The notes beneath the pieces were generated by a model, which was not told where the DNA came from, ran no database searches, and saw only the letters and a list, made by a program, of their open reading frames with translations. 41,441 bases of DNA from assembly GCA_001552765.1 (NCBI GenBank), contig KQ959422.1, positions 1 through 41,441 of the forward strand. Reading direction: 5' to 3'. Both the position numbers and the translations under genes were made by a program. This stretch comes from Bacteroidales bacterium KA00344 (GTDB taxonomy: Bacteria; Bacteroidota; Bacteroidia; Bacteroidales; Bacteroidaceae). Below, one piece after another: positions 1,362-41,228 of this stretch (position 1 is its first letter; every line of letters starts with the position of its first letter).

Positions 1362-1765
1362 GTAAAAATTAAATACTGTTTTTTGAAGATTTTATTTGGA
1401 GCATCCAGCGCAAAAAGGGCTATGTATATGCCCTGATTATTGATATGCTCATTCTGAAAATTATTCGGGTATCTAAATTTTTATTTTATCATGTTGCGAC
1501 AAGGCCTTAATCGCAGTGCAGTTAGACTTTAGAGGGGATGCGGAGGAGGCTTAAACGAGTTGCGATTAAGGCTCTTCCGCCACGCCATTAGATGCTTAAT
1601 CGCAAATGACGAAACAGACGATGCAAGTGGTATTTTGCAAAAACCACTGACAATCAATAGAGTACGAAAATGCGCGAATTTTGCGAAATTCGGACAGAGA
1701 GAAAAGTTTTTTCAGAATATTCGAATTTTAGAGAGGGTTTTGTCAAAAAAAATCATTGATTATCA
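1362..1765 (+). repeat. Dispersed intergenic element, copy A (forward)
   Basis: Left end GTAAAA followed by TACTGTTTTTTGA, then the head motif with ATCCAGCGCAAAAAGGGCTA (1403-1422). The core holds five degenerate GGCC-centred pseudo-palindromes, centred near 1504, 1526, 1549, 1571 and 1593 (steps 22, 23, 22, 22); the best unit reads AAGGCCTTAATCGC. The tail has a GACAATCA box and a GAGAGGGTTTTGTCA end. The first and fourth units carry GCCTTAATCGC and GCGATTAAGGC, an 11-bp inverted match. No conserved reading frame. Boundaries come from alignment with copies C and E and are good to about 10 bp at the left end and less well fixed at the right. Confidence 0.8.
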
Positions 1766-2052
1766 GTCCCCTTCGGAAATTAGGTGTTATATGAATTTCA
1801 GGCTAAATGTAGTGTCGTTGCTGAATTTATAAAATTTGAGAGGTGCTTGTAGAAGGAAAATGAAGATACCCAATATGTTTTAAGCTTTTCTGAAATTAAC
1901 CGCTCAAGATGCTATCCTGTAATCTTCTGTTCGTACTTCCATCATTAAAATAGTTTCATAATTCATTGAAAAGATTTTCATACTTGTCCATTTGCCAACG
2001 ACGTAGTTGTTTTTAATTATCCTGATGTGAGCCGAATGGATGGGGGCATAAA
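1766..2052. other. Intergenic stretch without recognised features
   Basis: About 290 bp between repeat element A and the tRNA-Met terminator. I see no plausible gene, promoter or repeat in it. Confidence 0.5.
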
Positions 2053-2057
2053 AGAAA

Positions 2058-2096
2058 AACGCTCAGAAGCCTTTATGTATTAGCTATCTGAGCGTT
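2058..2096 (-). terminator. Terminator of initiator tRNA-Met
   Basis: Read on the - strand, AACGCTCAGA (2087-2096) pairs perfectly with TCTGAGCGTT (2058-2067) and is followed by TTTCTTTT. It begins a few bases after the tRNA 3' end. Confidence 0.85.
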
Positions 2097-2100
2097 ATAG

Positions 2101-2173
2101 TTGCGGAGGCAAGACTCGAACATGCGACCTCCAGGTTATGAGCCTGGCGAGCTACCAACTGCTCCACTCCGCG
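2101..2173 (-). tRNA. Initiator tRNA-Met (CAT)
   Basis: Cloverleaf with anticodon loop CTCATAA. The C1 x A72 mismatch at the acceptor end (CGCGGAG against CTCCGCA) identifies an initiator rather than an elongator. Discriminator is A73 and CCA is not encoded. Two oddities: the anticodon stem is CCAGG/CCTGG, so the first of the three G:C pairs typical of initiators is A29:U41; and the T stem (GCATG/CTTGC) has a T52 x T62 mismatch. Confidence 0.92.
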
Positions 2174-2229
2174 ATATTTATGTAAAGGTATTTGGTATAT
2201 TAGTTATACTGTTTCCTTATTTGCATTTG

Positions 2230-2261
2230 CAAAGGTAGCGCTTTTTATTGTTATTTCCAAA
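2230..2261 (-). promoter_or_regulatory. Promoter of initiator tRNA-Met
   Basis: On the - strand, TTTGG (2257-2261), a 19-nt spacer, then TACCTTTG (2230-2237), about 57 nt ahead of the tRNA 5' end. Consensus-quality Bacteroidota promoter. Confidence 0.8.
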
Positions 2262-2316
2262 TGTTTCTGCCATTATTTTATGTTTTTTAATATTTTCACT
2301 TTTTTTTGTTACGATG

Positions 2317-2348
2317 TTTGTTAGTTTCAAGGAAAAATGATATTTTTG
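2317..2348 (+). promoter_or_regulatory. Promoter of the TetR-fabG operon
   Basis: TTTG at 2317-2320, a 20-nt spacer and TATTTTTG at 2341-2348. Expected leader about 55 nt before the ATG at 2411. It lies back to back with the tRNA-Met promoter. Confidence 0.65.
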
Positions 2349-2410
2349 CACTACCTATGAATGGTGTGCAATGTTGTGATTACCATTTTGATTTTGAATA
2401 AATTATAGAT

Positions 2411-3007
2411 ATGTCAATTTCTAAAACGAGGCAGAAACTTGTAGACGTGGCGCGTCAGCTCTTTGCGAAGAATGGTTTTGCGGCCACGACAATGAATGAT
2501 ATTGCTGTATCGTCGGGAAAGGGTCGTCGTACGCTTTATACTTATTTCAGTAGGAAGGAGGATGTCTATTATGCTGTAATAGAGTCGGAGTTGGAGCGTT
2601 TGAGCGACAAATTGGATGAAGTTGCGTCTAAGAATATTCAACCTCATGAGAAAATCATAGAGCTTATTTATACTCACTTGAGCATGATCAAGGAGACTGT
2701 CGTGAGAAATGGCAATCTTCGTGCAGAGTTCTTCAGGAATATCTGGACAGTAGAGAAGGTGAGAAAGAATTTTGATGAAGACGAGATAGAGCTTTTCTGT
2801 AAGGTTTATGCTGAAGGAAAGGAGGAGGGCGAATTTGACATAGACAATGTTGAATTGGTGGCCGACATTACTCATTATTGTATTAAGGGGCTGGAGGTGC
2901 CGTTTATTTATGGCCGTTTAGGTCATGGCCTGACCGAGGAGTCGAGCAGGCCATTGGTTGCCAAGGTGGTTTATGGAGCTTTGGGCAAACGTGGAATGTC
3001 TAAGTGA
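2411..3007 (+). CDS. TetR/AcrR-family transcriptional regulator
   Basis: 198 residues. The N-terminal helix-turn-helix is typical: residues about 7-50 read LVDVARQLFAKNGFAATT, then GKGRRTLYTYFSRKEDVYYAV, the classical TetR recognition helix followed by the YxYF turn. The rest is helical and ligand-binding with no recognisable effector signature. It is the first gene of a run with the FabG-type reductase 35 nt downstream, so control of that operon, perhaps of fatty-acid functions, is a reasonable inference. I saw no clear palindromic operator near the promoter. Family assignment is firm; target and ligand are unknown. Confidence 0.9.
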   Translation: MSISKTRQKLVDVARQLFAKNGFAATTMNDIAVSSGKGRRTLYTYFSRKEDVYYAVIESELERLSDKLDEVASKNIQPHEKIIELIYTHLSMIKETVVRNGNLRAEFFRNIWTVEKVRKNFDEDEIELFCKVYAEGKEEGEFDIDNVELVADITHYCIKGLEVPFIYGRLGHGLTEESSRPLVAKVVYGALGKRGMSK

Positions 3008-3042
3008 TTTTTTATATTTTATAACAACTAATCATAATAAAT

Positions 3043-3795
3043 ATGGGATTATTAAGCGGGAAGACGGCACTGATTACCGGTGCTGCACGTGGAATTGGAA
3101 AGGCTATAGCTTTGAGGTTTGCTCAAGAAGGTGCTAACATTGCTTTTACCGATCTTTTTATAGATGAGGAGCATGGTGGTCTGCCCACAGAACGTGAGAT
3201 AGCGTCTTTGGGCGTTAAGACTAAGGGGTATGCAAGTAATGCTGCCGATTTTGCTGAAACAGAGAAGGTGGTGAAGCAGGTCAAGGAAGATTTCGGCTCT
3301 GTGGATATTCTGGTGAACAATGCCGGAATTACCAAAGACGGCCTCATGCTCCGTATGACCGAGCAGCAGTGGGACGCTGTTATAGCTGTAAACCTAAAGA
3401 GTGCTTTCAACTTTATCCATGCTTGTGTGCCGATCATGATGCGTCAGCGTAAGGGCAGCATCATCAATATGTCGAGCGTAGTTGGTGTGCATGGTAATGC
3501 CGGGCAGTCCAATTATGCTGCATCGAAGGCTGGCTTGATAGCATTGGCTAAGAGTGTTGGTCAGGAAATGGGGCCCAAGGGTATTCGGGCCAATGCCATT
3601 GCTCCGGGTTTTATCGATACTGCCATGACCCAGGCATTGCCTGATGACATTCGCACAGAGTGGATTTCCAAGATTCCGCTTCGTCGAGGCGGCACGGTGG
3701 ACGACATCGCAAACACTGCCGTTTACTTGGCTTCAGACCTTTCCAGCTATGTTTCCGGACAGGTTATTCAGGTAGATGGCGGTATGAATATGTAA
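3043..3795 (+). CDS. fabG: 3-oxoacyl-[ACP] reductase (FabG-type SDR)
   Basis: 250 residues, normal for FabG. Classical short-chain dehydrogenase motifs: TGAARGIG (residues 12-19) for NADP(H) binding, NNAG (92-95), Asn118, the active-site Ser in NMSS (142-145), and Tyr158/Lys162 in YAASK. FabG reduces 3-oxoacyl-ACP to the 3-hydroxy form in type II fatty-acid elongation in the cytoplasm. The C-terminal VSGQVIQVDGGMNM is characteristic of FabG-like reductases. A somewhat long insert (FIDEEHGGLPTERE, 39-52) follows the second beta strand, so another SDR substrate cannot be excluded. It is 35 nt behind the TetR gene and 24 nt ahead of the pseudouridine synthase, suggesting one transcript. Confidence 0.85.
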   Translation: MGLLSGKTALITGAARGIGKAIALRFAQEGANIAFTDLFIDEEHGGLPTEREIASLGVKTKGYASNAADFAETEKVVKQVKEDFGSVDILVNNAGITKDGLMLRMTEQQWDAVIAVNLKSAFNFIHACVPIMMRQRKGSIINMSSVVGVHGNAGQSNYAASKAGLIALAKSVGQEMGPKGIRANAIAPGFIDTAMTQALPDDIRTEWISKIPLRRGGTVDDIANTAVYLASDLSSYVSGQVIQVDGGMNM

Positions 3796-3819
3796 TTTGA
3801 AAATGATAAAAAGATTAGG

Positions 3820-4512
3820 ATGAAAGTCGTTTACGAAGATAATCACCTAATCATCGTATATAAAGAAAGTGGGGAGATCGTTCAGGGAGATAAGACCGGC
3901 GATGTCCCCCTTTCTGAAACGGTGAAGGGCTACATCAAGGAGAAGTATCATAAGCCCGGAGCGGTGTTTCTGGGTGTTGTGCATCGCCTTGACCGCCCGG
4001 TTTCCGGATTGGTTGTATTTGCGCGTACCAGTAAGGCTTTGACACGTCTCAACGATATGTTTCGCCGGGGAGATGTGCATAAAACCTATTGGGCTATCAC
4101 CAAGAATGCCCCACCTCATGCTATGGGAACGCTCGTTAATTGGTTGGTGAGGAATGAGAAACAGAACAAAAGTTATGCTTACGACCGTGAGGTATCGGGG
4201 TCGAAGAAGGCTGTTCTCAATTATCGTCTCGTAGGGCATACGGATAATTATTATCTGTTGGAGGTTCAGCTTCTCACCGGTCGCCATCATCAGATAAGAT
4301 GTCAGCTTGCGCATATAGGGTGCCCCATAAAGGGAGATTTGAAATATGGGGCAAGACGCAGCAACCGGGATGGCAGCATCTCTTTGTTGGCCTGTCGGAT
4401 AGAGTTTGTTCACCCTGTTTCAAAGAGAACCATAACTTTAGAATCCCCTCTGCCCAACGATGTGTTGTGGCATGATATTACAGAAAGTGTCAAAAATGGG
4501 CAAATTAAGTAA
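3820..4512 (+). CDS. RluA-family pseudouridine synthase
   Basis: 230 residues. Carries the RluA catalytic motif VVHRLDRPVSGLVVF (about 53-67), with Asp58 as the nucleophile that isomerises uridine, and a later LLTGRHHQIRCQLAHIG block that binds the base. There is no N-terminal S4 RNA-binding domain, as in the short RluA/RluC-like forms of Bacteroidota. The substrate (23S rRNA or tRNA position) cannot be read from sequence. Position 24 nt after fabG suggests cotranscription. Family is secure, target is not. Confidence 0.9.
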   Translation: MKVVYEDNHLIIVYKESGEIVQGDKTGDVPLSETVKGYIKEKYHKPGAVFLGVVHRLDRPVSGLVVFARTSKALTRLNDMFRRGDVHKTYWAITKNAPPHAMGTLVNWLVRNEKQNKSYAYDREVSGSKKAVLNYRLVGHTDNYYLLEVQLLTGRHHQIRCQLAHIGCPIKGDLKYGARRSNRDGSISLLACRIEFVHPVSKRTITLESPLPNDVLWHDITESVKNGQIK

Positions 4513-4551
4513 TTTCTATCCCAAACAGGCTGTTAATTCCCATTTTTTTAT

Positions 4552-4560
4552 TTACTTTGC
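4552..4560 (+). promoter_or_regulatory. Possible -7 box ahead of tamB
   Basis: TTACTTTGC, one base off TAnnTTTG, 25 nt ahead of the tamB ATG. No good -33 box at the right distance, so a separate tamB promoter is only possible. Confidence 0.35.
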
Positions 4561-4584
4561 ACCATACGCTTTGAGCAGTGTCTT

Positions 4585-7500
4585 ATGAGAAAATATGTAA
4601 AGTGGGGCGGTATAGCCATTGGAATACCGTTTCTTCTGATAATTATATTGTGTCTTCTGTTTTATTTCCCCCCATTCCAGAGATGGGCGGTGAAAGAAGT
4701 CACGGCCTACGCGTCGGAAGAAATGGGTATGCAGATCAGTGTAGATCGTGTTAGTCTTAAATTTCCATTGGATTTGGCTTTGGAGGAGGTCAAGGTGTTG
4801 CAACCCAACGATTCCATTGAAAATGTTAAGGATACTGTAGCCTATATCGGAAAAGTAGTCGCTGATGTGCAGCTTTTGCCTCTTTTCAGCAAAAAGGTCA
4901 TGATAGACGAGTTGGCTTTTGAGCGCGTGAAAGTGAACACCGGACAACTCATTCCTTCTATGTGCATCAAGGGCCATGTGGGACATTTTGATCTAAAAGC
5001 TCATGACATCAATCTTAAAAACGAGTTGGGCAATATAGACAAAGTCTTGCTGAGCGATGCAGTTTTGAGCATTGAGCTGAGCGACACTGTTCCGCCCGAC
5101 ACGGCTCTAAGCGAAAACAACTGGAAGATAAGGCTGGCAGAGATTAAAGCCAACAATGCCGCCCTGACCATCCACATGCCGGGCGACACGATGGCTGTTA
5201 ATGCGTATCTGGGCGATGCCGTTGTAAAGAACACATACCTCGATCTTCAAAAGAGCCTTTATACGGTCTCGCATCTGGATTTGGATAGGGGTCATGTGAA
5301 GTATGACCTAAACTTTGAGCCGAAGATCAAGGGTTTTGACCCCAACCATCTCTCACTTGACAGATTGAAATTCAAGGCCGATTCGTTCTATTATGGAGAC
5401 AACCGTATGGGTGTAAAAATACTGGAGGCAGCTTTTCTTGAAAGAAGCGGCCTGGATGTTGATAGCCTGCGCGGGAAGTTTTTGATGGACAGCATACGGC
5501 TTTCCCTGCCCGATATGTATCTGAAAACCAAGGCCGGAACGGCTTTGGCTTTGGATTACAAAATGGATCTTAACGCGTTTGATGACCATCTGCCCGGACA
5601 ATTTGCGGCAAATGTTGCGGGCCACGTCGGCAAGCAAGACCTGATGATGTTCGCCGGCGACGGTATGCCGCGTGAAACGAAACGGCAATGGCCCAACAAA
5701 CCTATGGTTGTGGTTGGCAAGGTGTATGGCAATACTCAGAAGGCGTACATTAAGAATCTATCCCTGAATCTTCCCGGTGCGTTTAAGATAAAGGCCGATG
5801 GCGTTGCTGAGAATATTATGGACAGTGGCCGCCTGAAGGCTTATATGGATGTAAAAGCCCAAACGGGCAAGGTGGATTTTTTGACAGCCATGCTGGATAG
5901 GGAAACGAGACAAACAGTCCGGATTCCACGGGGCATAGCGCTAAATGGCAATGTCGAGGTGAACGGCAGTCAATACGCCGGCAAGTTCACGGCATCGCAA
6001 GGTGGCGGAAGCCTGCGTGGCGGAGTGGTGTTAGACGCCTCGAAAATGGCGTATAATGTAAAGATGGCGGCACGCGCTTTCCCACTTCAGAACTTCCTAC
6101 CCAATATGCAGCTGCACCCCTTTACAGGCACAATAGCTGCCAGCGGAAAGGGCACCGACTTTATGTCTTCCAACACACGTTTGGTGGCTAAGGCCAAGGT
6201 GCAAGACTTCAGGTATGGCGATTATAACCTGAATCATATCGATGCGGACGCCACTATACACAATGGGCATGTTGTGGCCAACATTGAAAGTCGAAATTCT
6301 TTGATAGACGGCAATTTCACCGTAGACGCGCTAACCGGCGGCAGAGAGCTTCGGGGCACGGTGTCGGGCGATTTCAGACAGATCGATTTGCAAGGCCTCC
6401 ATGTAGTCGATGAGCCATTAACCCTTGCGGCGTGCGCCCACTTGGACCTTTCCTCCGACTTGAAACAGAAGCACCATTTGAGGGGCACGTTGAGCGAACT
6501 GACGTTTAAGACCCAGACTGAAGAATATCATCCGGAGAATGTCGAACTCGACTTGTTCACGTCGCGTGATACCACCCATGCCATTGTGGAGACTGGGGAT
6601 TTCACGCTGAACATGGGCACTTCCGGCGGATATGAGCAGTTGCTCGAAAACAGCAATGCCTTTGTTGCTGAACTTCAAAGCCAACTCAAGAACAAATACA
6701 TAGACCAGACGCGTCTGCGCGCCCGACTTCCCAATGCCCGCATATTCCTCTTTACCGGTAAAGACAACATTTTCGTTCACACACTGAACCACTTTGGCTA
6801 TGGATTGGGCAGCGCTTTTGTGGATATGGATTCTTCGCCGTCGTCCGGTTTGAATGGCAATGCCTTTGTGGACTCATTGATGTTGGGCGACTTTCAGGTT
6901 GATACGGTGAGATTTGGCTTTTCTTCAAGCGAGGGCAATACAACCTACACTGCGCAGCTCCGTAATGGTAAGGGCAATCCCCATTATGTCTTCAACGCAT
7001 TCCTTGACGGATCTATCAACGAGAAAGGTACTTTTGTGCGGACACGTATATATGACGAGAACGACTCTCTGGGTGTGCGCCTGGCATTGCAAGGCTCGAT
7101 GGAGGAGCATGGCGTCAGCATCCATCTCTTTGGCGACAAGCCGATCTTGGGCTACAAGGAGTTTTCCGTAAACGACAGCAACTATATTTTCCTTGGCGAA
7201 GACGAGCGTGTGCGGGCGAATATGGCGCTTCGGTCTGCTGACGGAATGGGTATCCAAATCTATAGTAATGATGAAAATATGGATGCTCTTCAAGACTTAA
7301 CCATCGGCACACGGCATTTCGACCTTGGTGAAGTATTGTCGATGATTCCCTTCACGCCGGACATAGGCGGTATCATGAACGGCGATTTCCATATCGTGCA
7401 AACTCCGGAGGCGACAACCGTTTCGTCTTCGATATACATTGATGACATGGTATACGAAGGGAACGCAATGGGCGATATAGGCTCTGAGTTCACCTATATG

Positions 7501-16304: not shown

Positions 16305-16442
16305 GTTTATGTCTCGTGCCGATAATGGGAAAGGGCATGGTGCCTGCTCCGTCTTGGTTTCCTCATATTCCTGATAGGGTTGCTGTCTGCGAGGGGCCGA
16401 CATGGCTGAATTGGAGTTGGCCAAATATGTAATAAAAACGCC

Positions 16443-16830
16443 CCCTAAAAATATTTACAAAAGGTCTGAAATGCTTCGCTTATTTCAAAATGAAAAGCAA
16501 TTCATTTTGAATAGGCCAAAATTTTCGGTTTTCCATAATGGCTTGATTCTCTTTGGTTTATCTTTCTTCTCCCGTTTCAGACGCGCTGAGAGTTTTCTGG
16601 TGGCCCCGCGATTGAGGCCTAACCGTAGGGCCGATAGGCCTTAACCGCGTGTCCTTTAGACTCTTTTCGGAGTGCGGATAGGCCTTAGTCGCAGAGCCAT
16701 TAGGCTGTAATCGCAAACTCCGGAGTTGTTTGTCGGCATCTCGTCCGGTTTTGATGATGGAAAACATAGCCTTTTTTGAGCTGGTTGATGGCAGCAAGCG
16801 AGATGGTTTTTTAACCAAAAAGATTTATAA
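16443..16830 (-). repeat. Dispersed intergenic element, copy B (reverse)
   Basis: Read on the - strand it has a degraded head (ACCAGCTCAAAAAAGGCTAT at about 16763-16783), then five GGCC-centred pseudo-palindromes. Their centres are near 16704, 16682, 16660, 16638 and 16617 (steps 22, 22, 22, 21). The tail is AT-rich (FATTC/GAATAAGCG-like arms) and ends TTTTGTAAATATTTTT. This is the most diverged head of the family, but the core spacing is intact. Ends are approximate. Confidence 0.7.
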
Positions 16831-17053
16831 TTCACAATCTTTTATAATTCACAATGCACAATCGTTTACAATTCATAATTCACAATTTTCAATTCACAAT
16901 TAAAGTCCATCGTAGACCAGTGTTCATTCCAAATTCTCGAAAGATGACGAGTTGATATGCACGCGAATAACTGTGAATTGAAAATTGTGAATTATGAATT
17001 GTAGACGATTGTGCATTGAAAATTGTGAATTATGAATTACAAATGATTGTGCA
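16829..17053. repeat. Long AATTCACAAT inverted repeat with a 38-bp tandem repeat
   Basis: The left arm (about 16846-16900) and right arm (about 16972-17020) are complementary over roughly 50 nt with few mismatches, separated by a loop of about 70 nt. The right arm contains two tandem 38-bp units (16978-17015 and 17016-17053), both beginning TTGAAAATTGTGAATTATGA and ending GATTGTGCA. Transcribed, this would be one large hairpin. AATTCACAAT-type intergenic repeats are common in Bacteroidota genomes. The right arm runs into the DHH promoter. Confidence 0.85.
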
Positions 17054-17078
17054 TTGTGAATTAAAAAACTTACCTTTG
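17047..17078 (+). promoter_or_regulatory. Promoter directly abutting the DHH gene start
   Basis: TTG at 17047-17049, 21 nt, then TACCTTTG at 17071-17078. The box ends only 9 nt before the ATG at 17088, so the transcript would be leaderless or nearly so. Confidence 0.65.
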
Positions 17079-20603: not shown

Positions 20604-20679
20604 TGGTACACCCTTAGGGATTCGAACCCTAGACCCACTGATTAAGAGTCAGTTGCTCTACCAACTGAGCTAAGGGTGC
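20604..20679 (-). tRNA. tRNA-Lys (CTT), copy 2, CCA encoded
   Basis: Anticodon loop CTCTTAA gives CTT. Acceptor GCACCCT pairs with AGGGTGT (G1:U72 wobble), A73, and CCA is encoded. Same mature sequence as the copy 25 nt upstream. Confidence 0.95.
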
Positions 20680-20704
20680 ATGAGAAACTATCTTGAACGG
20701 TGAG

Positions 20705-20777
20705 TACACCCTTAGGGATTCGAACCCTAGACCCACTGATTAAGAGTCAGTTGCTCTACCAACTGAGCTAAGGGTGC
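20705..20777 (-). tRNA. tRNA-Lys (CTT), copy 1, CCA not encoded
   Basis: Identical 73-nt body to the following tRNA-Lys, but the bases after A73 are CTC, so CCA must be added by the nucleotidyltransferase. Both are transcribed from the promoter at 20823-20854. Confidence 0.95.
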
Positions 20778-22975: not shown

Positions 22976-23183
22976 TTATATTCAGTCTTGTGTAGCATAG
23001 TTTTATTAAAAGTTTGATAGCAGGAAGATAGGACGTAGGAATAAGAGTTCGTACATGTAAACACGTCTATTGTACTCAGATGCTTCAGATACATTCTTTC
23101 CTCTTCATTCTAGCTCTAATTTGTCCGCTTCGTTTTTCTCTCCTCACTCTTCACTTTAATTTATATTCTTCCCTCTCCACTTA
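22976..23183. other. Gap with a pyrimidine-rich tract
   Basis: About 210 bp between the candidate RNA and repeat element C. 23090-23180 is strongly C/T-biased (TTTCCTCTTCATTC, TCTCCTCACTCTTCAC). No gene seen. Confidence 0.5.
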
Positions 23184-23560
23184 GTAAAATATTATTACCG
23201 TTTTTTGATCATTATTTTCGAGTCATCCAGCGCAAAAAGGGCTATGTTTTTTCGTCAAAATCGGGCTAAACATTCCTAAAAAATGTAAGGCTGCTGCGAT
23301 TGAGGTCTATTCACAGCCTGGTTAGGCCTTATCGGCAGTGCGGAAGAGCCTCAATCACGCTGCGGTTACGCCCTTGTCGTCATGCCGTTCAATACTTAAT
23401 CGCAGGCGGAAAAATAGAAGAATACGGGGCGTTTTTTCAAAGACGTTGATTGTCAGGTGTTTATAAATCATCGCTATTTTCGCGTATTTCGGACGAAGAC
23501 AAACTTTTTTTTAAATACGCGAATTTGAGAGGGCTGTTTGTCCATAAAAATGACAGTTTC
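23184..23560 (+). repeat. Dispersed intergenic element, copy C (forward)
   Basis: Left end GTAAAA, then TACCGTTTTTTGA and the head motif ATCCAGCGCAAAAAGGGCTA (23225-23244). The core has five pseudo-palindromes centred near 23305, 23326, 23348, 23370 and 23393 (steps 21, 22, 22, 23). The tail has TTGATTGTCAGGTGTTT followed by a perfect 11-bp hairpin, TTCGCGTATTT (23479-23489) with AAATACGCGAA (23513-23523), and ends GAGGGCTGTTTGTCCA. Best-preserved copy for the tail. Confidence 0.85.
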
Positions 23561-31274: not shown

Positions 31275-31568
31275 ATAATAAACTACATATTTTGTTTATT
31301 TTTTATTTTTATCCGAATGGACATATTACGTGTTGAGAAAGGGAGTGAAATGCAACACAGAGGTATAGAAACAGAAACACAGTTTAGAAAAGAGCGCATT
31401 TTGTGGTCGGAAAGTTTTTGTCGTTCATTTTTTATTACCATTTTTGCATTGTGATTTGTGCTGAATGACAGTTGGGGGCATGATCATGTTTTCCTCTGTG
31501 GTCGTTTATGCGCCATGTGGATTTCGTTGGAAATGGAGATGTTTCAGGCTGAAATACGGTGAGGCTCT
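31275..31568. other. AT-rich gap upstream of repeat element D
   Basis: About 290 bp. No credible gene or promoter for the + strand gene at 31977. Confidence 0.4.
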
Positions 31569-31955
31569 GTAAAGAATACTTCACTAAAATCCTGTCAGGA
31601 TTTTCGGTCGTTATAGCGTGCAAAATGCCTTTTTTTGTCAATTATGATGCTGTTTTGGAAGCTCAATAATTCCGGGCCATTGCGATTGGGGCCTAACGGC
31701 CTCATGGTAGAGGCCTAACGGCATCATGGAAACGGCTTTGACGCCTCACGATTGCTACTTTATCGCGATGCGAAAAGGCCCTAACGATATGACGAAAGGA
31801 TGAATAAAATGCCGATTTTAGGGTTTTTTGAAAGCAACTGTTTGATTGTTAGGTGTTTGCGAAAAGGTGCTCATTTTTCTCGTATTTCGGGCAAAAAGAT
31901 TTGCATTTTCAAATACGCGCAGCATAATAGAGGTTTTGTCAAGAAATATTCGTGG
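31569..31955 (+). repeat. Dispersed intergenic element, copy D (forward)
   Basis: The head is degraded (GTAAAGAATACTTCACT, later AGCGTGCAAAATGCC). The core is clear: five units centred near 31691, 31713, 31735, 31757 and 31779 (22-bp steps), best as GGGGCCTAACGGC and GAGGCCTAACGGC. The tail has TTGATTGTTAGGTGTTT and a 7-bp hairpin, CGTATTT (31881-31887) with AAATACG (31911-31917), ending AGAGGTTTTGTCAA. The element stops about 20 bp before the start of the next gene, so that gene's promoter must lie in or be replaced by the element. Confidence 0.75.
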
Positions 31956-33299: not shown

Positions 33300-33309
33300 A
33301 TCTGGGGTG

Positions 33310-33317
33310 CAAAGATA
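33310..33317 (-). promoter_or_regulatory. -7 box of tRNA-Leu
   Basis: TATCTTTG on the - strand, 10 nt ahead of the tRNA. TTTG runs upstream (33330-33334, 33342-33345) are not at the standard 19-nt distance. Confidence 0.5.
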
Positions 33318-33380
33318 CACAAAAATTTTCCAAACGTTGTACAAACTAGGGAGAAATTATCAGATTATTCTAATTTATGA

Positions 33381-33597
33381 TTAGAATTTGGGTGTATCTC
33401 TATTATAAATTGGGCGCATCGCTATTAGGGTTTAGGCGTGTACCTATTAGAATTACATAATCTCTTATTAGAATTTGAATATTCTCCCTATTAGAATTTG
33501 AGAGAGTTTCTATTAGAATATAGCCGTATTTCTATTAGGGTTTAGCCGAATTCCTATTTGAATTGCATAATCTGTTATTAGAACTTCATAGTCAGGG
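33381..33597. repeat. 22-bp tandem array behind tex, with 110-bp higher-order repeat
   Basis: Ten units begin at 33381, 33403, 33425, 33447, 33468, 33491, 33513, 33535, 33557 and 33578 (22 bp, occasionally 21 or 23). Consensus TTAGAATTTGnnnnnTnnCTA; unit junctions read TTCTATTAGAA, a near-perfect palindrome. Units 3, 4 and 5 match units 8, 9 and 10 better than their neighbours (for example TTAGGGTTTAG at 33425 and 33535), giving a 110-bp period. The last unit contains the tex stop codon. Confidence 0.85.
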
Positions 33598-35710
33598 CGA
33601 TGCGGTTTCGTCGGCGGTCCACCGAAATAACTTTGACCCTGACGTGCTGGTGAAGTTTCACTACGTCGTTTGGGTCTTTCACAAAGCGGTTGGCCATTTG
33701 GGAGATGTGAACGAGCCCGTCTTGATGAACGCCAATATCGACAAAGGCACCGAAATTGGTAATGTTGGTCACGATACCCGGCAACTCCATACCCGTTACG
33801 ACGTCTTCCGGCGTCTTGACGCGTGGGTCAAATTCAAAGGTTTCTATCTTGTCGCGTGGGTCGAGGCCGGGTTTTTCCAACTCCTTGAGAATGTCGTGCA
33901 ACGTTGGAAGTCCCACTTCGGTCGTGACATAGCGATTGATGTCTATTTTCTTGCGCAGTTCGGGATTCTTCATTAGGTCAATAACCTTGCAGCCGTTGTC
34001 ATCGGCCATACGTTTCACGAGGGGATAACTTTCGGGATGTACCGCGCTGCCATCGAGCGGATTCTTGGCATTGGGGATGCGCAGAAAGCCGGCACATTGC
34101 TGAAAGGCAGCCGGACCGAGACGTGGAACTTCCATGAGTTGGCTGCGCGAGATGAAGGCTCCGTTTTCTCTGCGATAGTCCACGATGTTCTGTGCTAATG
34201 CCGGACCGAGTCCGCTTACATAGGTCAGCAGATTCTTACTGGCTGTGTTGAGGTTTACGCCAACGGAGTTTACGCATAACGCTACAGTCTGGTCGAGCGA
34301 ATGTTTGAGCTTGGTAGGGTCTACATCGTGTTGGTATTGTCCCACGCCGATGTTTTTGGGGTCAATCTTTACAAGTTCGGCGAGGGGATCCATGAGGCGT
34401 CGCCCGATGCTGACAGCACCCCGCACGGTGACGTCTTGGTCGGGAAATTCCTCGCGTGCCACTTCGGATGCCGAGTAGATGCTGGCTCCATCTTCGCTCA
34501 CCACATAGGTAGGAATATCCTCGATTTGGCGTAGAATGTCTGAAGTTTCACGCGAAGCGGTGCCGTTGCCCACTGCAATCGCTTCGGCTTTGTATTTCAG
34601 AGCGATGTCCTTGAAGCGCTGCAGGGGAGTAGGACTGCCCGGCTTGGAACTTTCTGACTTGTGCCCAACGGCATACACCACGTCGTGGAAGAGCAGGTTT
34701 CCCTGTGCATCGAGCATCACAACTTTGCATCCCGTGCGGATGCCGGGATCGACACCCATCACGCGCTTTTGTCCCAACGGGGCAGCAAGGAGCAACTGTC
34801 GCAGATTCTCCTTGAACACTTTGATGGCCTCGTCGTCAGCTTTTTCTTTGCTGATCGCTGCAAATTCGTTCTCCATAGAGGGGCGCATGAGTCGTTTGTA
34901 AGCGTCTTCCACAGTTTCGCTCACCAATTTTTGGCATGGCCCGGAGCCGTGCACATAGTAGCGTTTGAGTCTTTCCACGCACTCGTCGTCGTCAGCTGTA
35001 ATCGTCACCTTGAGTATTCCCTCAGCCTCTCCACGTCTCATGGCAAGCAAGCGATGGGAGGAACAGCGTCTGAGTTCTTCGCTGAAGATGAAATAATCGG
35101 AGTATTTCTGTGCCTTTTCCTCATCTTTCATCTTAGGGATAACACGTGAAGTTATGGTAGCTTCGCGCCTGAACACGCTGCGCACACTTTTTCGTGCCCC
35201 TTCGCTTTCACTGATTTTTTCGGCAATAATGTCCTTGGCGCCTTGAAGGGCAACCTCGACACTCTCCACATTTTCTTTCACGAAGCGTTGAGCAATGCCT
35301 TCGGGGTCGCGTTCCCGCTGCTTCAGAATGATGTCGGCAAGAGGCTCCAGACCTTGCTCGCGGGCAATTTGGGCACGTGTTCGGCGTCGTGGTTTGAAAG
35401 GCATATAGATGTCTTCCAGTTCGGTTGCGTTCCAACTGGCAGTGATGCGTTGCTGCAAATCTTCGGTGAGTTGGCCCTGCTCGTCTATGGTTTTGAGGAT
35501 GGTGTCCTTGCGCTTTTGCAGTTCTTTGAGTTTATCGTTAAGGTCACTGATGGCCGCCACCTGCACTTCGTTGAGGTTTCCGGTGGCTTCTTTGCGGTAT
35601 CGGCTGATGAAAGGAATGGTGCAACCGGCTTCGAGCAGGTCGAGTGTCGCGTCTACTTGGGCCTCCCTGATGTTGAGTTTGGAGGCGATGTGGGGAGTAA
35701 ATATATTCAT
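33578..35710 (-). CDS. tex: Tex-family RNA-binding transcription accessory protein
   Basis: 710 residues, normal for Tex. The N-terminal helical Tex domain (ITASWNATELEDIYMPFKPRRRTRAQIA, about 90-115) is followed by a YqgF/RuvX-like domain starting VMGVDPGIRTGCKVV (about 316), helix-hairpin-helix repeats (NLLTYVSGLGPALAQNIVDYR, about 488-508), and a C-terminal S1 domain (GIVTNITNFGAFVDIGVHQDGLVHISQM, about 650-680). Tex binds nucleic acid and affects transcription; precise role varies by species. The stop codon forms part of the downstream 22-bp array. A weak - strand -7 box (TATTTTTG, 35775-35782) lies 64 nt upstream of the start. Confidence 0.93.
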   Translation of the reverse strand: MNIFTPHIASKLNIREAQVDATLDLLEAGCTIPFISRYRKEATGNLNEVQVAAISDLNDKLKELQKRKDTILKTIDEQGQLTEDLQQRITASWNATELEDIYMPFKPRRRTRAQIAREQGLEPLADIILKQRERDPEGIAQRFVKENVESVEVALQGAKDIIAEKISESEGARKSVRSVFRREATITSRVIPKMKDEEKAQKYSDYFIFSEELRRCSSHRLLAMRRGEAEGILKVTITADDDECVERLKRYYVHGSGPCQKLVSETVEDAYKRLMRPSMENEFAAISKEKADDEAIKVFKENLRQLLLAAPLGQKRVMGVDPGIRTGCKVVMLDAQGNLLFHDVVYAVGHKSESSKPGSPTPLQRFKDIALKYKAEAIAVGNGTASRETSDILRQIEDIPTYVVSEDGASIYSASEVAREEFPDQDVTVRGAVSIGRRLMDPLAELVKIDPKNIGVGQYQHDVDPTKLKHSLDQTVALCVNSVGVNLNTASKNLLTYVSGLGPALAQNIVDYRRENGAFISRSQLMEVPRLGPAAFQQCAGFLRIPNAKNPLDGSAVHPESYPLVKRMADDNGCKVIDLMKNPELRKKIDINRYVTTEVGLPTLHDILKELEKPGLDPRDKIETFEFDPRVKTPEDVVTGMELPGIVTNITNFGAFVDIGVHQDGLVHISQMANRFVKDPNDVVKLHQHVRVKVISVDRRRNRIALTMKF

Positions 35711-35828
35711 TTCGATGAGTATTTATGGAATGATTGCAGCCGAATGGCAAACTGTTGAATCACAATTGATTTTGCAAAAATATAAAAGAGGTGATAATCA
35801 AAAGAAATGATGTTGGGAAGCTCGGAGC

Positions 35829-36833
35829 CTATGAACTGTGTAGAAAAGCTCTGGCAGCCTCTATGAGCGTGTCTCGCCCCCGATGGAAATCGATGGGAGA
35901 GAGTGACACATTGATGTCGGGGGCGATGCCGTCTTCCGTGCTTTGCTTATCCTTATCATACATGGGGCAGGCCGAAAAACGCACGCTCCACCCGTTGGGA
36001 ATCTCACTGGAGAATGGGAGACCGCCCCCACCGCCTGTTTGGTCACCGATGACGGTTACCTGAGGACAGCATTTCATGTATTTCACAAACTCGTTGGCAG
36101 CAGAGAAAACATGTCGGTTGGTCAGCACAACAACTTTCTTTTGCCACCGCACGGCTTTGGCGGGTTTCAGTCTCTGTGCTTTCATCTTGGAGAAGTCGTT
36201 GTGCCCTTTGCCGGTCTTGTGTCGCATATATCCCACAAGGATGGTCTCATTGGTGAAACGAGCGGCAAATTCTTCGGCAGCAGTGAGCATACCTCCACCG
36301 TTCTGTCTGAGGTCTATGATAAGTCCGTTGCAGGGAGCCAGATACAGCAGAATGTTGTCAAGGTTGACCGATCCGATAGCATTCACAAAGCTCGCAAACC
36401 TGATATATCCCACGTTATCATCGAGTATGCGGTAGCGGAAACCGTTCGTGATTCTGTAATCCCTACTCAAATACTTGTTGATCAGCGTGTCACTGTAGTT
36501 GCTTGGATGGTTTTCATGGAATCCCCAGTATCGACCGGTGTCGAAAGAAGTAAACAAATTGACGTGCCCGTCTTTGAGTTCGGCCAACATATTGCCCAAA
36601 ACCTCAAGCAGTTGGCCTTCTGTCATGCCGTCGTTCACTTGTTTATGATAGCGCGTGTACACCTCGTTCCAATCCACACCCTTCTCTTGGAAGAAGCAAT
36701 AATGCTCGTCCATAATCTTCCACAAAGCCTCAAAATTGCCACGGGGATTGTCAGCAAATTCTTCTTCTTGGACACATGACGAGAGCAACAGCATCAAGGC
36801 AGGGAGAAAATATGTCAGGAACGATTGTTTCAT
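35829..36833 (-). CDS. S41-family peptidase, lipoprotein
   Basis: 334 residues. Lipoprotein signal with Cys20 after LLLSS. The peptidase part has the S41B/tricorn-like features LKDGHV (86-91, His90), LRQNGGG (175-181) and NRHVFSAANEF with the probable nucleophile Ser244 (239-249), then GDQTGGGGGLP. The CtpA-type catalytic Lys (S-x-K spacing) is not evident; the tricorn-type Ser-His-Glu arrangement fits better. No PDZ domain is obvious. Last gene of the parC operon, 18 nt behind the DUF3316 gene. Probably a periplasmic or outer-membrane protein; substrate unknown. Confidence 0.85.
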   Translation of the reverse strand: MKQSFLTYFLPALMLLLSSCVQEEEFADNPRGNFEALWKIMDEHYCFFQEKGVDWNEVYTRYHKQVNDGMTEGQLLEVLGNMLAELKDGHVNLFTSFDTGRYWGFHENHPSNYSDTLINKYLSRDYRITNGFRYRILDDNVGYIRFASFVNAIGSVNLDNILLYLAPCNGLIIDLRQNGGGMLTAAEEFAARFTNETILVGYMRHKTGKGHNDFSKMKAQRLKPAKAVRWQKKVVVLTNRHVFSAANEFVKYMKCCPQVTVIGDQTGGGGGLPFSSEIPNGWSVRFSACPMYDKDKQSTEDGIAPDINVSLSPIDFHRGRDTLIEAARAFLHSS

Positions 36834-36851
36834 AGTTATGGTTTGTAGGTC

Positions 36852-37670
36852 TTAATATTTCCATCCCAGCACCACCCCGTGACTGTATTGATGGTATTTC
36901 AGGCTGTTGGCCCTCATCTGTCGTATGTCTCCGAGATACCCCACACTGAATGTTGATCGCCAAAGTCGGAAGTCGAGCGTGAGCCGCATCTGTAGCTGGG
37001 GCCCGCTGAAAGGTGATGTTACTACAATGTTGTGGTCGTAGTTCCCCTCCGAAAAAATCTCATAATACGACTGTCCGTAGTTTGGCGAGAAGGCCAATCC
37101 TATCAACGGCATCGCTATTTCATAGTTTAACGCGAATGGGTGTTCCTTGATATGGAAGTCCCAGCAAACCTTTGCCGAGGGATCGATAGACAGGGATAGC
37201 CGTGCCTGCGCGGGGTTGTTGGAATTATGCGTGTTGTATGACCCGCCGAGCGTACCATCGACCAGCCCGCCAACCTTGAACTTGAGGTCCGGACGGCCCA
37301 ATTGCCAGTTGTAGTGCCATCCTATTTTAAAATTATACATTGCGGTCAGCAGGGAGTTGTTATTGCCCCGTGTTCCTGCCGAAGACAGGAAGATATGGTG
37401 TGTCACTTCGCTCGACACTCTACTGCCGACACGCTGTCGTTGTGTTTGCGAAACGTATCTTAGTTCCGTGCCTTTGAACGTTTCCTGCGAGAGATAAGTG
37501 TCGAGAATGTCGGTGTGGCTTATCCCAAACATACCGCGTCGCTCCGTCAGTCTTGCCGGCTTCCTCCTGATGGAGTCGCTTTGAGCATAGACGGAGAGGC
37601 ACGCGAGCAGCAGCATGCACATGGCCGGCAGCCTTGTCAGATTATGATTTATGGCTTGAATCCTCATCAT
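36852..37670 (-). CDS. DUF3316 secreted protein
   Basis: 272 residues. N-terminal signal peptide (cleavage near LSVYAQ, residue about 29), then a beta-rich domain with VSSEVTHHIFLSSAGTRGNNNSLL, WHYNWQLGRPDLKFKVGG and a C-terminal LDFRLWRSTFSVGYLGDIRQM. This matches the DUF3316 family of Bacteroidota, which resembles outer-membrane-associated beta proteins and has no established function. The start overlaps the parC coding region by 29 nt, so translation may be coupled to parC. A later start at Met17 would remove the polar N-terminus and shrink the overlap. Confidence 0.75.
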   Translation of the reverse strand: MMRIQAINHNLTRLPAMCMLLLACLSVYAQSDSIRRKPARLTERRGMFGISHTDILDTYLSQETFKGTELRYVSQTQRQRVGSRVSSEVTHHIFLSSAGTRGNNNSLLTAMYNFKIGWHYNWQLGRPDLKFKVGGLVDGTLGGSYNTHNSNNPAQARLSLSIDPSAKVCWDFHIKEHPFALNYEIAMPLIGLAFSPNYGQSYYEIFSEGNYDHNIVVTSPFSGPQLQMRLTLDFRLWRSTFSVGYLGDIRQMRANSLKYHQYSHGVVLGWKY

Positions 37671-40413
37671 TGAATAAGCTCAGCTGACCGGTCATCTCGT
37701 CAATGATTTGTTGTTGAGATTTCCCTGCATCGGGGTCGAGGTTTTCCTCCTTCTCCTCCTCCGCATCTTCGTCTTCATCCGCAGATGCTGATTCGGGGAA
37801 GCGCAGGGGCTCCAACTCCTCTATCTTGTCGATGGTCCATGTCGAAATTCGCTTGCCTTTGGCTTTGAATCCCTTGACAGCGATAAACTCGTCGGCGTCA
37901 ATCTCCATCGGCTGGCGCACGGCATCATCTCCGCCAAAGGTCACAAGAAATCGCGGATAGGCCGTGTCGGTCAGCGTGATCAGCTGACTTTCCGGATTGT
38001 CGCCAATATAGTTTTGGTGGCGTTTGGTAGCCTCCATCTGGAATCGCTTGATGTACGGATAACCCTCGTTTTCGGCATCATAGAGCAGGGCGGTCCACAC
38101 TTTGTCGGGATCCCACTTCTCCAACACCTTGATGTTCTTTTCGTAATGGTTGTTTACGTCAAAATCGGTGATATAGAAGTCGCCGTTGTCGAGCACCACC
38201 AATATGCTGTCGTCGTCGTTAAACTCGCCGAGCAGTCGTCCGTGTTCCTCGTAGTTGATGCGGTTTACATCCTTGTCAAACCACACCTTGCGCCCGCCCA
38301 GCGTGGAGCGACCATGACTTTTCAGCGTCACGCGATGCACACTGCGCTTCGTCAGTATGTTTCCCTTTGCCGTGCGTCCCTTGATTTTGATTTCGGAGAA
38401 GTCCATCTCCATGAAAATGTTTTGTCTTTTCTTCTTGGGCTCCGGGTTGAGCGTCACCTTGATGATTTCGGCTTCGCCATTGGGGTTGGCCGTGAAATAG
38501 AGCACTTTCGAGCCCGGTTTGCCTTGCGTAACGTCGTATTCCCGGTCGCGGGTCATGCTCGTCACGTTGAAACGCTTGATATAGCTGTAGCCGCTTTTCC
38601 CGTCACGATAGACAACATTGTATATGGTGCGCTTGTCGTTCTTGTTGAACACCTGCACCCATATCACGTTTTTGCCCACAAAAATCTTGTCGGCCACCTT
38701 TGTTATCTTGTATTTTCCGTCTCGATAGAAGATGATGATGTCATCCAGATCAGAGCAGTTGCATACATACTCATGCTTTTTCAGTCCCGTTCCTACGAAT
38801 CCATCCTGACGGTTGATGTAGAGTTTTTCATTGGCTTCCACCACCATTGCCGCTTCTATCGTGTCGAAACTGCGAATCTCCGTGAGTCGCGGATGGTCCT
38901 TGCCGTAGGTGGCTTTCAGGTGTTTATACCATGCAACGGTGACGTCGGTCATGTGTGCTAGGTCGTGTTCGATGCCTTTGATTTCGGCTTTCACCTTTGC
39001 CATGAGTTGTTCGGCCTTGTCCTTATTATATTTAAGGATGCGTTGCATCTTGATTTCGAGCAGCCGGAGATAGTCGTCCTCTTTGATCTCGCGTATCAGG
39101 TCTTTCTTGAACGGGTCGAATTTCACGTCGAGAAATGCCACGACGGCTTTCTGGTCGGGCGCCTGTTCAAATTTCTTTTCCTTATACATACGCTCTTCGA
39201 TGAAGATGCGCTCCAAGGAAGCAAAGAAGAATTGTTCCTCCAACTCTCCCTTTCGGATGAGGAGTTCCAGCCTGAGCAGTCCCATCGTGCGGTCCACATT
39301 GTGCTTCAGCACATCGCTCACCGTGAGGAACGCCGGTTTGTCGCCGTCGATGACGCAACAGTTTGGCGATATGTTGATTTCGCAGTCGGTGAAGGCATAG
39401 AGGGCATCGATGGTCTTGTCCGACGATATTCCCGGCGACAGCTGCACCTGTATTTCCACCTCTCTTGCCGTCATGTCGGTCACGCGTCTGGCCTTGATTT
39501 TTCCTTTCTCAATGGCTTTGGTAATCGAATCCTGCAGCGAGGCAGCCGTCTTGGTGAACGGCACTTCGCGAATGACGAGCGTCTTGCTGTCTAATTTTTC
39601 TATTTTTGCACGCACGCGCACCGTTCCTCCGCGCTGCCCGTCGTTGTATTTTTCTACGTCGATGGCGCCGCCTGTGGGGAAGTCGGGATAAAGCTCAAAC
39701 GCTTTGCCACGAAGATAACTAATGGCGGCATCACACAGCTCGTTGAAGTTGTGTGGCAACACCTTACTGCTCAGTCCCACTGCAATACCTTCCGCACCCT
39801 GTGCCAGCAGCAGGGGGAACTTCACCGGAAGCGTAACCGGCTCCTTGTTGCGGCCGTCATAACTCTGCTGCCATTGCGTAGTCTTGGGATTGAACACGGT
39901 TTCCAAGGCAAATTTCGAGAGTCTGGCCTCGATGTATCTTGGTGCGGCAGCACGGTCGCCGGTGAGAATGTTTCCCCAGTTACCCTGAGCATCGATGAGC
40001 AGGTTTTTCTGTCCGAGCTGCACGAGGGCATCGCCGATAGAAGCGTCGCCGTGAGGGTGAAACTGCATGGTGTGCCCCACGATGTTGGCCACCTTGTTGT
40101 AGCGCCCGTCATCCATGCGCTTCATCGAGTGGAGGATGCGCCGCTGCACGGGTTTCAGTCCGTCTTCGATATCGGGCACGGCTCGTTCGAGTATGACGTA
40201 GGAGGCATAGTCGAGAAACCAGTTTTTGTACATGCCGCTCAGATGGTGCACGGCCGACGCGTCGAATCGGTCAGCCGGCATATAGTCGGAATGTTGGTCG
40301 TCGTCGGCCATGTCGTCTGTGCTGTAATCAGCAGTCTCCTTGTATTCGGAATTTTCGGGGGTTACTTCTTCAGAAATCCCGCCTTTGTTGTCTATGTTTT
40401 TATCGTTGCTCAT
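37642..40413 (-). CDS. parC: DNA topoisomerase IV subunit A
   Basis: 923 residues from the ATG at 40413. An upstream in-frame ATG (40569) would place the -7 box inside the coding sequence, so the later start is preferred; it also opens MSNDKNIDNKGG. The N-terminal breakage-reunion domain has the catalytic Tyr160 in RAAAPRYIEAR and the HPHGDASIGDAL stretch (119-130) where quinolone contacts lie. A large N-terminal acidic extension (about 1-55) and an acidic C-terminus (DEDEDAEEEKEENLD) are present. ParC and ParE form topoisomerase IV, which decatenates chromosomes. Bacteroidota ParC carries this divergent quinolone region naturally. First gene of the operon. Confidence 0.9.
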   Translation of the reverse strand: MSNDKNIDNKGGISEEVTPENSEYKETADYSTDDMADDDQHSDYMPADRFDASAVHHLSGMYKNWFLDYASYVILERAVPDIEDGLKPVQRRILHSMKRMDDGRYNKVANIVGHTMQFHPHGDASIGDALVQLGQKNLLIDAQGNWGNILTGDRAAAPRYIEARLSKFALETVFNPKTTQWQQSYDGRNKEPVTLPVKFPLLLAQGAEGIAVGLSSKVLPHNFNELCDAAISYLRGKAFELYPDFPTGGAIDVEKYNDGQRGGTVRVRAKIEKLDSKTLVIREVPFTKTAASLQDSITKAIEKGKIKARRVTDMTAREVEIQVQLSPGISSDKTIDALYAFTDCEINISPNCCVIDGDKPAFLTVSDVLKHNVDRTMGLLRLELLIRKGELEEQFFFASLERIFIEERMYKEKKFEQAPDQKAVVAFLDVKFDPFKKDLIREIKEDDYLRLLEIKMQRILKYNKDKAEQLMAKVKAEIKGIEHDLAHMTDVTVAWYKHLKATYGKDHPRLTEIRSFDTIEAAMVVEANEKLYINRQDGFVGTGLKKHEYVCNCSDLDDIIIFYRDGKYKITKVADKIFVGKNVIWVQVFNKNDKRTIYNVVYRDGKSGYSYIKRFNVTSMTRDREYDVTQGKPGSKVLYFTANPNGEAEIIKVTLNPEPKKKRQNIFMEMDFSEIKIKGRTAKGNILTKRSVHRVTLKSHGRSTLGGRKVWFDKDVNRINYEEHGRLLGEFNDDDSILVVLDNGDFYITDFDVNNHYEKNIKVLEKWDPDKVWTALLYDAENEGYPYIKRFQMEATKRHQNYIGDNPESQLITLTDTAYPRFLVTFGGDDAVRQPMEIDADEFIAVKGFKAKGKRISTWTIDKIEELEPLRFPESASADEDEDAEEEKEENLDPDAGKSQQQIIDEMTGQLSLFNDEDSSHKS

Positions 40414-40442
40414 AGGTGATTTGACTAATCCTTTTAATGCTC

Positions 40443-40473
40443 CAAAGGTACGAAAAAAAACGGGAAAAGCAAA
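40443..40473 (-). promoter_or_regulatory. Promoter of the parC operon
   Basis: On the - strand, TTTG (40470-40473), 19-nt spacer, TACCTTTG (40443-40450). It gives a leader of about 25 nt before the ATG at 40413. Confidence 0.8.
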
Positions 40474-40835
40474 AATATATTTAAATGTAGGATAATCTTT
40501 TAAAACATTTTTGTGTTTTTCGTGTTTGGCCTGTTCTCTGGCAGGCGCAAAGCCGTCGCAGGGTTTCATGCCATCTGTAAGGAGCCTTGGCGTGTCTGCC
40601 TTTTTGAGGAGCGTGATGTCCGTTTTTTTGATAATGTTTGCAGGTCGTTTTCTTCTTTTCTTGTTGAAGCTGTTTTGCAGGAGGCCGTATGAGCCGACCG
40701 TTTCGAGGCTGTTGTTGGTGGTTCCCGTTTTTCGGGGAAGTAACTTTTAAATCTTGGGAACGAGACTTAAAATGAGGGGACAATAGAGCGCAATCCCCCT
40801 TGCTGTGTGACACGAAACGGAAACAGAAAATGAGG
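40474..40835. other. Gap upstream of parC
   Basis: About 360 bp. Small frames on both strands look spurious. Nothing else supported. Confidence 0.5.
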
Positions 40836-41228
40836 TTATTTTCTTTTACAAACACTCGTTTATGCTTGGCTTATTCAAAAATGATTTTGTTTTTGCCCGA
40901 AATACGCCAAATATGCGGACGTTTGTAAACGTCTGATAGTCAGTCCTGTTTGTAAAAGTGCCATGGTGCCTCCTGTTTTCTGCCTCGCGGTTGCATATCG
41001 AATGGCTGTGTGGGAAGGCCTTAATCGCCATGCGTTTAGGGCTTCCTTGTCCGGCGGTTAAGGCTTAATCGTGTGGCGATAAAGGCCTTGTCACGAAACG
41101 GCAGGATTCAAAACTAAGGATATGCACGTTTTTGAGGCTTCCCGACCACACAACGAAGGTGAAAAGATAGCCCTTTTTGTGCTGGATGCTCAGTGAACAG
41201 TTGTTAAAAAACAGTAACTAAATTTTAC
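40836..41228 (-). repeat. Dispersed intergenic element, copy E (reverse)
   Basis: Read on the - strand: left end GTAAAATTTAGTTACTGTTTTTT, split here as GTAAAATTTAG then TTACTGTTTTTT; head ATCCAGCACAAAAAGGGCTA (about 41168-41187). Four clear core units are centred near 41085, 41063, 41041 and 41018, plus one weak unit near 41107. The tail hairpin pairs TTGGCGTATT with AATAAGCCAA (40866-40876 and 40899-40910 on the + strand). It ends with TGTTTGTAAAAGAAAAT. Confidence 0.8.

Follow-up and report, generated by a model that had tools for sequence, protein, structure and literature searches.

Evenly spaced, non-coding arrays with a 22-bp period between the genes of Bacteroidales bacterium KA00344 and related genomes

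A stretch of 41,441 nucleotides from Bacteroidales bacterium KA00344 (assembly GCA_001552765.1, contig KQ959422.1, positions 1 to 41,441 of the forward strand; hereafter, the window) carries five copies, A to E, of a non-coding intergenic element that was found at least 142 times in this genome. Each copy is a DNA array of nearly fixed length, composed of alternating inverted 11-bp half-sites and likely bound by several copies of a protein. Copies change in length in 22-bp steps and lie between genes at more even distances than chance placement gives, and two lineages combine a common frame with array motifs that differ. In the explanation that we favor, to which we assign a probability of about 0.5, the arrays are bound by a sequence-specific protein and act as anchors that split the chromosome into loops or domains of about 7-18 kb. 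The specificity of this protein would have changed together with the array, and the spacing would serve chromosome architecture beyond reflecting how the copies arose.

Copy number, spacing and placement of the element

The original prediction, made from the window alone, that the genome would hold many such elements was borne out by a search of the 3,035,871 bases (3.04 Mb, 142 contigs) of KA00344. A 20-base head box was found at 87 genomic places with at most two mismatches, while a reversed control gave 0, and a head profile built from 28 copies yielded at least 142 matches at E <= 0.01, a lower bound since the best 150 of 1541 candidates were scored, so that the true number is probably higher. 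In Hallella bergensis (G255), 106 matches at E <= 1 were found, 94 of them at E <= 0.01. The single-contig genome G016 gave 140 matches at E <= 0.1 with a core-to-tail profile, corresponding to about 130 copies, and a shorter relative of the element was found at 227 places genome-wide in G108 (two contigs, 2.7 Mb). The copy number in these four genomes of the Prevotella group thus ranges from roughly 90 to 230. A catalogue made with a full-length profile from 1.59 Mb of DNA (0.80 Mb of H. bergensis and 0.79 Mb of KA00344, including the window) contained 103 elements, 97 of which scored above 100 bits. Many copies in KA00344 sit close to contig ends, at a distance of a few hundred bases or less (e.g., on C29, C34, C42, C43, C94 and C102), and scaffold gaps of 100 N were found inside copies on C61, C134 and C142; the assembly therefore seems to break at copies.

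An exact scan of a collection of species genomes, which may omit records of KA00344 itself or of very near genomes, had a sole match, H. bergensis DSM 17361. A family restricted to single species was also suggested by a head model, which under the stricter filters of the wide searches matched 0 of 35 same-genus genomes, and by a pattern found in 2 of 249 genomes including KA00344. This was overturned by a core-to-tail profile built from 66 copies of KA00344 and H. bergensis, which matched 75 of 129 same-genus genomes (completeness >=90%) at E <= 0.001; many of these 75 show just one weak match or a few of them, which leaves presence unproven for them individually, and others have at least 15. 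Among 159 genomes of the taxonomic family, a tail profile matched 14, all of the same genus (1 of 16 genera). With the KA00344 and G016 profiles, a 100-kb stretch of G209 (C1 300001-400000) gave a single clear copy and one of G085 (C1 100001-200000) no more than a chance-level match, so that either the density of the element varies within the genus or the arrays in these genomes may be too divergent to be matched.

The distances between neighboring copies are far from random. Among the 89 gaps of KA00344 and H. bergensis, only 2 were shorter than 7 kb, while random placement in intergenic gaps of at least 100 bp gave a mean of 32.2 and a minimum of 19 in 5000 runs, and a null restricted to intergenic gaps of at least 250 bp gave a mean of 30.7 and a minimum of 20. 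Chance spacing from limited intergenic room thus fails under both nulls. The 53 gaps of KA00344 have a median of 11.7 kb, and the sole gap below 5 kb is a local tandem duplication with 100% identity. A duplication of this kind, with an offset of 954 bp and with one element inside, was seen at C134 14754-16072. In H. bergensis, the median of 36 gaps is 13.6 kb and the smallest gap is 9,083 bp, followed by 9,114, 9,307 and 9,333 bp. Using ranges that were chosen after seeing the data, 50 of 53 gaps in KA00344 fall within 6.7-23 kb (null 23.9, maximum 38) and 30 of 36 in H. bergensis within 9.0-18.1 kb (null 8.7, maximum 19); the latter is near what would be expected if every stretch able to hold a copy has one. 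In G016, 1 of 129 gaps was shorter than 4 kb, compared to a mean of 19.3 (minimum 8) under a uniform null, 3 were shorter than 5 kb (23.7, minimum 11), and a profile built for this genome gave 11 matches, 5-16 kb apart, in one 100-kb stretch. For G108, based on 100 of the 227 places, 1 gap was shorter than 2.5 kb (null 8.8, minimum 2) and 7 were shorter than 3.5 kb (12.1, minimum 2).

Three stretches of the H. bergensis genome that are free of the element were examined. The one at 632-774 kb encodes a DUF2958/N6-methylase and two topoisomerases among the longest 8 of 109 open reading frames (ORFs) scanned, and the one at 391-436 kb encodes a microvirus-type capsid and a DNA methylase among the longest 4 of 35; we take the genes in both to be of mobile type. 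No mobile-type genes were found among the 6 longest of 44 ORFs at 139-203 kb.

The searches and the placement of copies relative to ORFs confirmed a dispersed, non-coding, intergenic family that occurs in either orientation. The claim that copies lie only between genes held broadly; 5 of 95 placed copies, including copy D with 147 bp, overlap an ORF of at least 100 aa by more than 50 bp, with ORFs called by a longest-first rule rather than by a trained gene finder. Convergent gaps held 24 of these 95 copies, divergent gaps 16 and tandem gaps 55, compared to 131, 135 and 412 background gaps. No orientation preference relative to neighboring genes was found, and in G016, where 76 copies lie on the plus and 54 on the minus strand, no pattern was evident by eye over ten bins.

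Anatomy and length of the arrays

All five window copies were present where they had been predicted, with small coordinate corrections (listed below). The predicted size of 380-405 bp became 369-407 bp, with copy C (369 bp) below the predicted range. The order of parts is as predicted, i.e., left end, head box, five 22-bp units, a TGATTRTCA-type box, an inverted pair (GCGTATT/AATACGC) and a tail (TTTTGTCAA/TTTGTAAAG in the window copies), with copies B and D the poorest fits. Where an AT-rich hairpin had been proposed, an inverted repeat is indeed present but has no support from covariation. The mean column identity of the five aligned copies is 64%.

1361-1753, plus strand: copy A, long class, 393 bp (sequence reading and profile match)
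1402-1428, plus strand: head box of copy A, 25 of 27 consensus letters
1495-1604, plus strand: array of copy A, five 22-bp units made of alternating inverted 11-bp half-sites
about 16424-16830, minus strand: copy B, left end degraded and next to AATTGTG-type repeats; profile positions 44-397
16607-16716, minus strand: array of copy B, unit frame less certain
23183-23551, plus strand: copy C, short class, 369 bp
23224-23250, plus strand: head box of copy C, 27 of 27 consensus letters
23295-23404, plus strand: array of copy C, five 22-bp units
31568-31949, plus strand: copy D, divergent, 382 bp; left end placed by eye, as the anchor score misplaced that end
31680-31789, plus strand: array of copy D, frame set by eye, one unit later than by anchor score
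40838-41229, minus strand: copy E, long class, 392 bp
41162-41188, minus strand: head box of copy E, 25 of 27 consensus letters
40986-41095, minus strand: array of copy E, five 22-bp units

The core has a period of 22 bp with dyad centers every 11 bp, which means that half-sites alternate in orientation; the core is matched by the profile on the other strand as well. In the 1.59 Mb of catalogued DNA, the 22-bp motif was matched 606 times inside elements and 50 times outside, and 46 of the 50 outside matches lie in ORFs. An ordinary regulator with single promoter sites was rejected on these grounds.

Total length falls into two classes, 369 bp and 391-392 bp, which are one 22-bp step apart and which are kept by copies that often share 50-66% identity. 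Lengths were counted for the 99 of 125 copies in which both ends were recognized, so that decayed copies are under-represented. Among the long-class copies of KA00344, which differ from one another by 132 substitutions per pair on average, 28 of 36 are exactly 392 bp and 35 are within 391-394 bp; alignment of each pair in this class required about 5 gaps, mostly compensating ones since the totals agree. Short-class copies measure 367-371 bp in 17 of 18 cases in KA00344 and in 39 of 45 in H. bergensis. Across the 125 distinct copies, distances between boxes are constant to within about 1 base, and larger departures are mostly of about 10-11 or 21-22 bp. The distance from the head to unit 5 is 159-161 or 180-182 bp (138 in one copy), that from unit 5 to the box is 61-63 bp (73 in three copies, 84 in one), and that of the inverted pair is 32-34 bp (43 in two copies). 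Other departures were of 21-22 bp, for the distance from the box to the inverted pair, and of -3, 30, 34, 36, 37, 47, 50, 56, 59 and 60 bp; some of these are probably due to misplaced anchors. That length is preserved in helical turns although identity is low speaks for selection acting on individual copies and for a complex of protein and DNA whose shape is fixed.

The elements of G016 have a similar frame, with a TTTGTAAAGATTAT left end, a TTTGATTGTCAA box, a GCGCGTATTT/AAATACGCG pair and a GGCATTTGTAAAGAT tail. Their array motif, roughly GCAATTTGACGCAAATTGC, differs from that of the window family and again has a 22-bp period with 11-bp dyads. Box and tail lie 89 bp apart in 29 of 30 copies and 99 bp apart in one, and total lengths, measured in 18 of the 30, are 369-370 bp (6 copies), 390-392 bp (11) and 413 bp (1). 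These match the lengths of the window family, so that two unlike array sequences share lengths in 22-bp steps. The array of G108 also has another motif than the window family, again with a 22-bp period and dyads every 11 bp.

In the mechanism that we propose, protomers of the putative protein would dock every 11 bp along the array and assemble, with the head box, the TGATTRTCA box and the GCGTATT/AATACGC pair, into one nucleoprotein complex of fixed shape. Such a complex would account for changes in length that come mostly as whole helical turns. The binding protein would be dedicated and species-specific, and its recognition would change over time; a protein of this type would agree with the indifference to orientation, with motifs confined to arrays and with the finding that motifs are lineage-specific while the frame is common. 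Of the three options that the original prediction had offered (a MITE-like element, a structured RNA and a chromosomal protein-binding array), the last is the best fit, with binding itself predicted.

Some short-class copies of KA00344, e.g., window copy C and the one at C134 46641, have in common TTCACTC heptamers ahead of the left end and, downstream, an extension in which T's follow a possible hairpin. Degenerate AATTCAC/TGTGAAT heptamer tracts that face each other at window positions 16829-17067 adjoin copy B at its degraded left end. Two other repeats were seen in the window: an array of about nine 22-bp direct repeats (CTATTAGAATTT-type) at 33380-33586, which adjoins a tRNA-Leu gene and had no second copy in the 1.59 Mb scanned, and two tRNA-Lys (ctt) genes at 20604-20777 with identical 76-bp stretches 98 bp apart.

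Site turnover and alternative explanations

Some sites are common to KA00344 and H. bergensis, on the same side of the gene, including that of window copy C (C82_23183 and B30a_72097), and at one site at least (C142_51632 and L093) both flanks match while the element is reversed. Several of these comparisons, together with other observations, weigh against the proposed domain anchors. Shared sites were found in 7 of 32 flank tests with 2.2 expected, and in 5 of 26 with about 2 expected after removal of loci counted twice; at the level of gene adjacency the counts were 6 of 17 versus 8 of 49 (p 0.165). In 10 of the 11 pairs that could be compared (some of these 11 share a gene but not its side; 7 further listed pairs lacked a member in the alignment), the elements were no more alike than ordinary KA00344-H. 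bergensis pairs, lying at the 15th-94th percentile of all such pairs. Young subfamilies of 85-92% identity indicate that copies still spread, and a hard minimum distance is also expected from target immunity. The spacing rule of G108 is short-ranged and weaker, which counts against an anchoring role, as does the under-representation of decayed copies among those measured. Moreover, no protein, gene or binding datum turned up in searches that were aimed at sites rather than proteins. Shared sites as proof of vertical inheritance were rejected as weak, given the 5 shared tests in 26 and pairs no more alike than ordinary ones; the modest sharing suggests that the spacing rule is kept better than positions are. 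One pair stands far above the others (C142_22078 in KA00344 and L095 in H. bergensis), with 96% identity in the element and 98.6% in the flank. A young subfamily in H. bergensis (C30 8769, 246548, 445508 and 576844) is 85-92% identical and shares about 150 bp beyond the tail.

Even spacing combined with site turnover fits either selection for spacing, as for domain anchors, or rules of insertion. Copies of transposons with target immunity keep apart, and Tn7- and Mu-type ends have binding sites of about 22 bp. The main rival explanation is a selfish, non-autonomous mobile element with target immunity that inserts between genes, never within several kb of an existing copy, so that it would fill the genome to an even spacing while rendering no service to the host. 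We consider this less likely, despite a minimum distance between copies that is as sharp as it would predict in H. bergensis, where 30 of 36 gaps lie between this distance and twice its value, and despite the turnover of sites between species, the young subfamilies and the spread within one genus in the searches made. Terminal inverted repeats are absent, as the consensus ends TGTAAAATA and TTTGTAAAG read in the same direction. No consistent target duplication was found: duplicated 6-mers occurred at 12 of 83 sites compared to 5.7 under the null (maximum 14 in 500), a weak excess, and duplicated 9-mers at none. Recent duplicates end at differing points (from about -91 to -8 on the left and from +383 to +598 on the right). 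The geometry is retained in most of the copies measured even though identity is 50-66%, and no transposase was linked to the element in a search limited to the RAYT family. Unlike Tn7- and Mu-type ends, the window family has contiguous palindromes with 11-bp dyads and no defined ends. The option of a MITE was dropped for the lack of inverted ends and of a consistent target duplication and for the varying ends of recent duplicates. Domain anchoring is favored over target immunity because old copies stay intact and duplicates have no fixed ends.

It is improbable that each copy is a transcription boundary or terminator, which would stop or insulate transcription between units in both directions. 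Such a role would agree with intergenic placement without regard to orientation, with the finding that 0 of 39 gene pairs adjacent in both KA00344 and H. bergensis hold a copy, and with the downstream hairpin and T's seen by eye in one subfamily, but there is no clear preference for convergent gaps (24 of 95 copies versus 131 of 678 background gaps), and neither the minimum distance nor the 22-bp steps would be explained. Slightly more doubtful still is a topological site of the REP/BIME type, bound by a general enzyme such as gyrase with no dedicated protein. Alternating palindromic units in more than 100 intergenic copies would suit it, yet a conserved enzyme would not require array motifs that differ completely between lineages, and RAYT-type (Y1) transposase genes, of which G016 has 3, were absent (0) from KA00344, H. 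bergensis and G108. A REP/RAYT origin was rejected on this absence in three of four genomes, along with duplicates that lack fixed ends and the lack of a consistent target duplication. A structured regulatory RNA is very improbable. Fixed length, inverted repeats and a somewhat better folding of copy A than of its shuffles (z -2.40) would favor it, whereas copy C gave a z of -0.86. The covariation checks, which covered the head and the core-to-tail parts, predicted 0 pairs with RNAalifold from core to tail over 66 aligned copies and 4 pairs in the head of 28 copies, none with a compensatory change, and an Rfam search returned tRNAs only.

Relation to described repeats and implications

That the element does not belong to a described family holds insofar as a literature search found no description of the window family; a repeat of Prevotella intermedia, PINSR, looks like a shorter relative. 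According to the available part of its description (Naito et al., PMC4755523), PINSR is 188 bp long and numbers 177 copies in one strain and 184 in another, the two strains agree in about three quarters of its sites, few copies lie in mobile regions, and PCR found it in four related species only. PINSR and the window family have in common that they are non-coding, intergenic, numerous and without terminal inverted repeats, while PINSR has half the length of the window copies (369-407 bp), and that part of the account gives no array, no spacing rule and no function, which its authors left open. The repeat of G108, found by self-comparison, is 188-189 bp long in 10 of 11 measured copies; it contains four palindromic units of 22 bp and a TTGATAAC box, and its left end is of the form TTTTGTAAAGATAAT. 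Compared by description rather than by printed consensus, it is probably PINSR or close kin. The profile of the window family had no significant match to it (E 0.042), and their layout and short boxes look like those of families with a common ancestor.

Two other described systems show partial likeness. BrickBuilt of Porphyromonas gingivalis (PMC4596501) is also an intergenic element with a leader and a tail, and its tandem units (23 nt) are comparable in length, but it has 19 copies with 1-23 units in direct repeat and IS5-like inverted ends, whereas the window family has five palindromic units of 22 bp, a fixed length and no inverted ends. REP/BIME elements with RAYT resemble the window family in their many intergenic palindromic units of alternating orientation, and binding of gyrase and IHF has been reported for BIMEs (PMC2817692). 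The window consensus, by contrast, shows no GTAG-type foot, and each copy is a single composite whose length is fixed.

Repeats dispersed between genes are mostly regarded as debris. The family described here follows two rules that seldom occur in combination: length is conserved in whole helical turns despite an identity of 50-66%, and copies keep a minimum distance from each other, a rule that is clear in three genomes (KA00344, H. bergensis and G016) and weaker in a fourth (G108). PINSR thereby gains likely relatives with a readable anatomy. More tentatively than for the anchors themselves, protein-docking arrays that are helically phased and evenly spaced may form a lattice along entire Prevotella chromosomes, with a lineage-specific motif in a conserved frame; in such a chromosome-anchoring system, evolution would keep the spacing of sites rather than their position or exact sequence. 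If the elements are instead selfish DNA with target immunity, they would provide a clean natural record of the immunity process. If the arrays do anchor domains, Prevotella would offer a sequence-defined, countable system in which to ask what sets the size of bacterial chromosomal domains.
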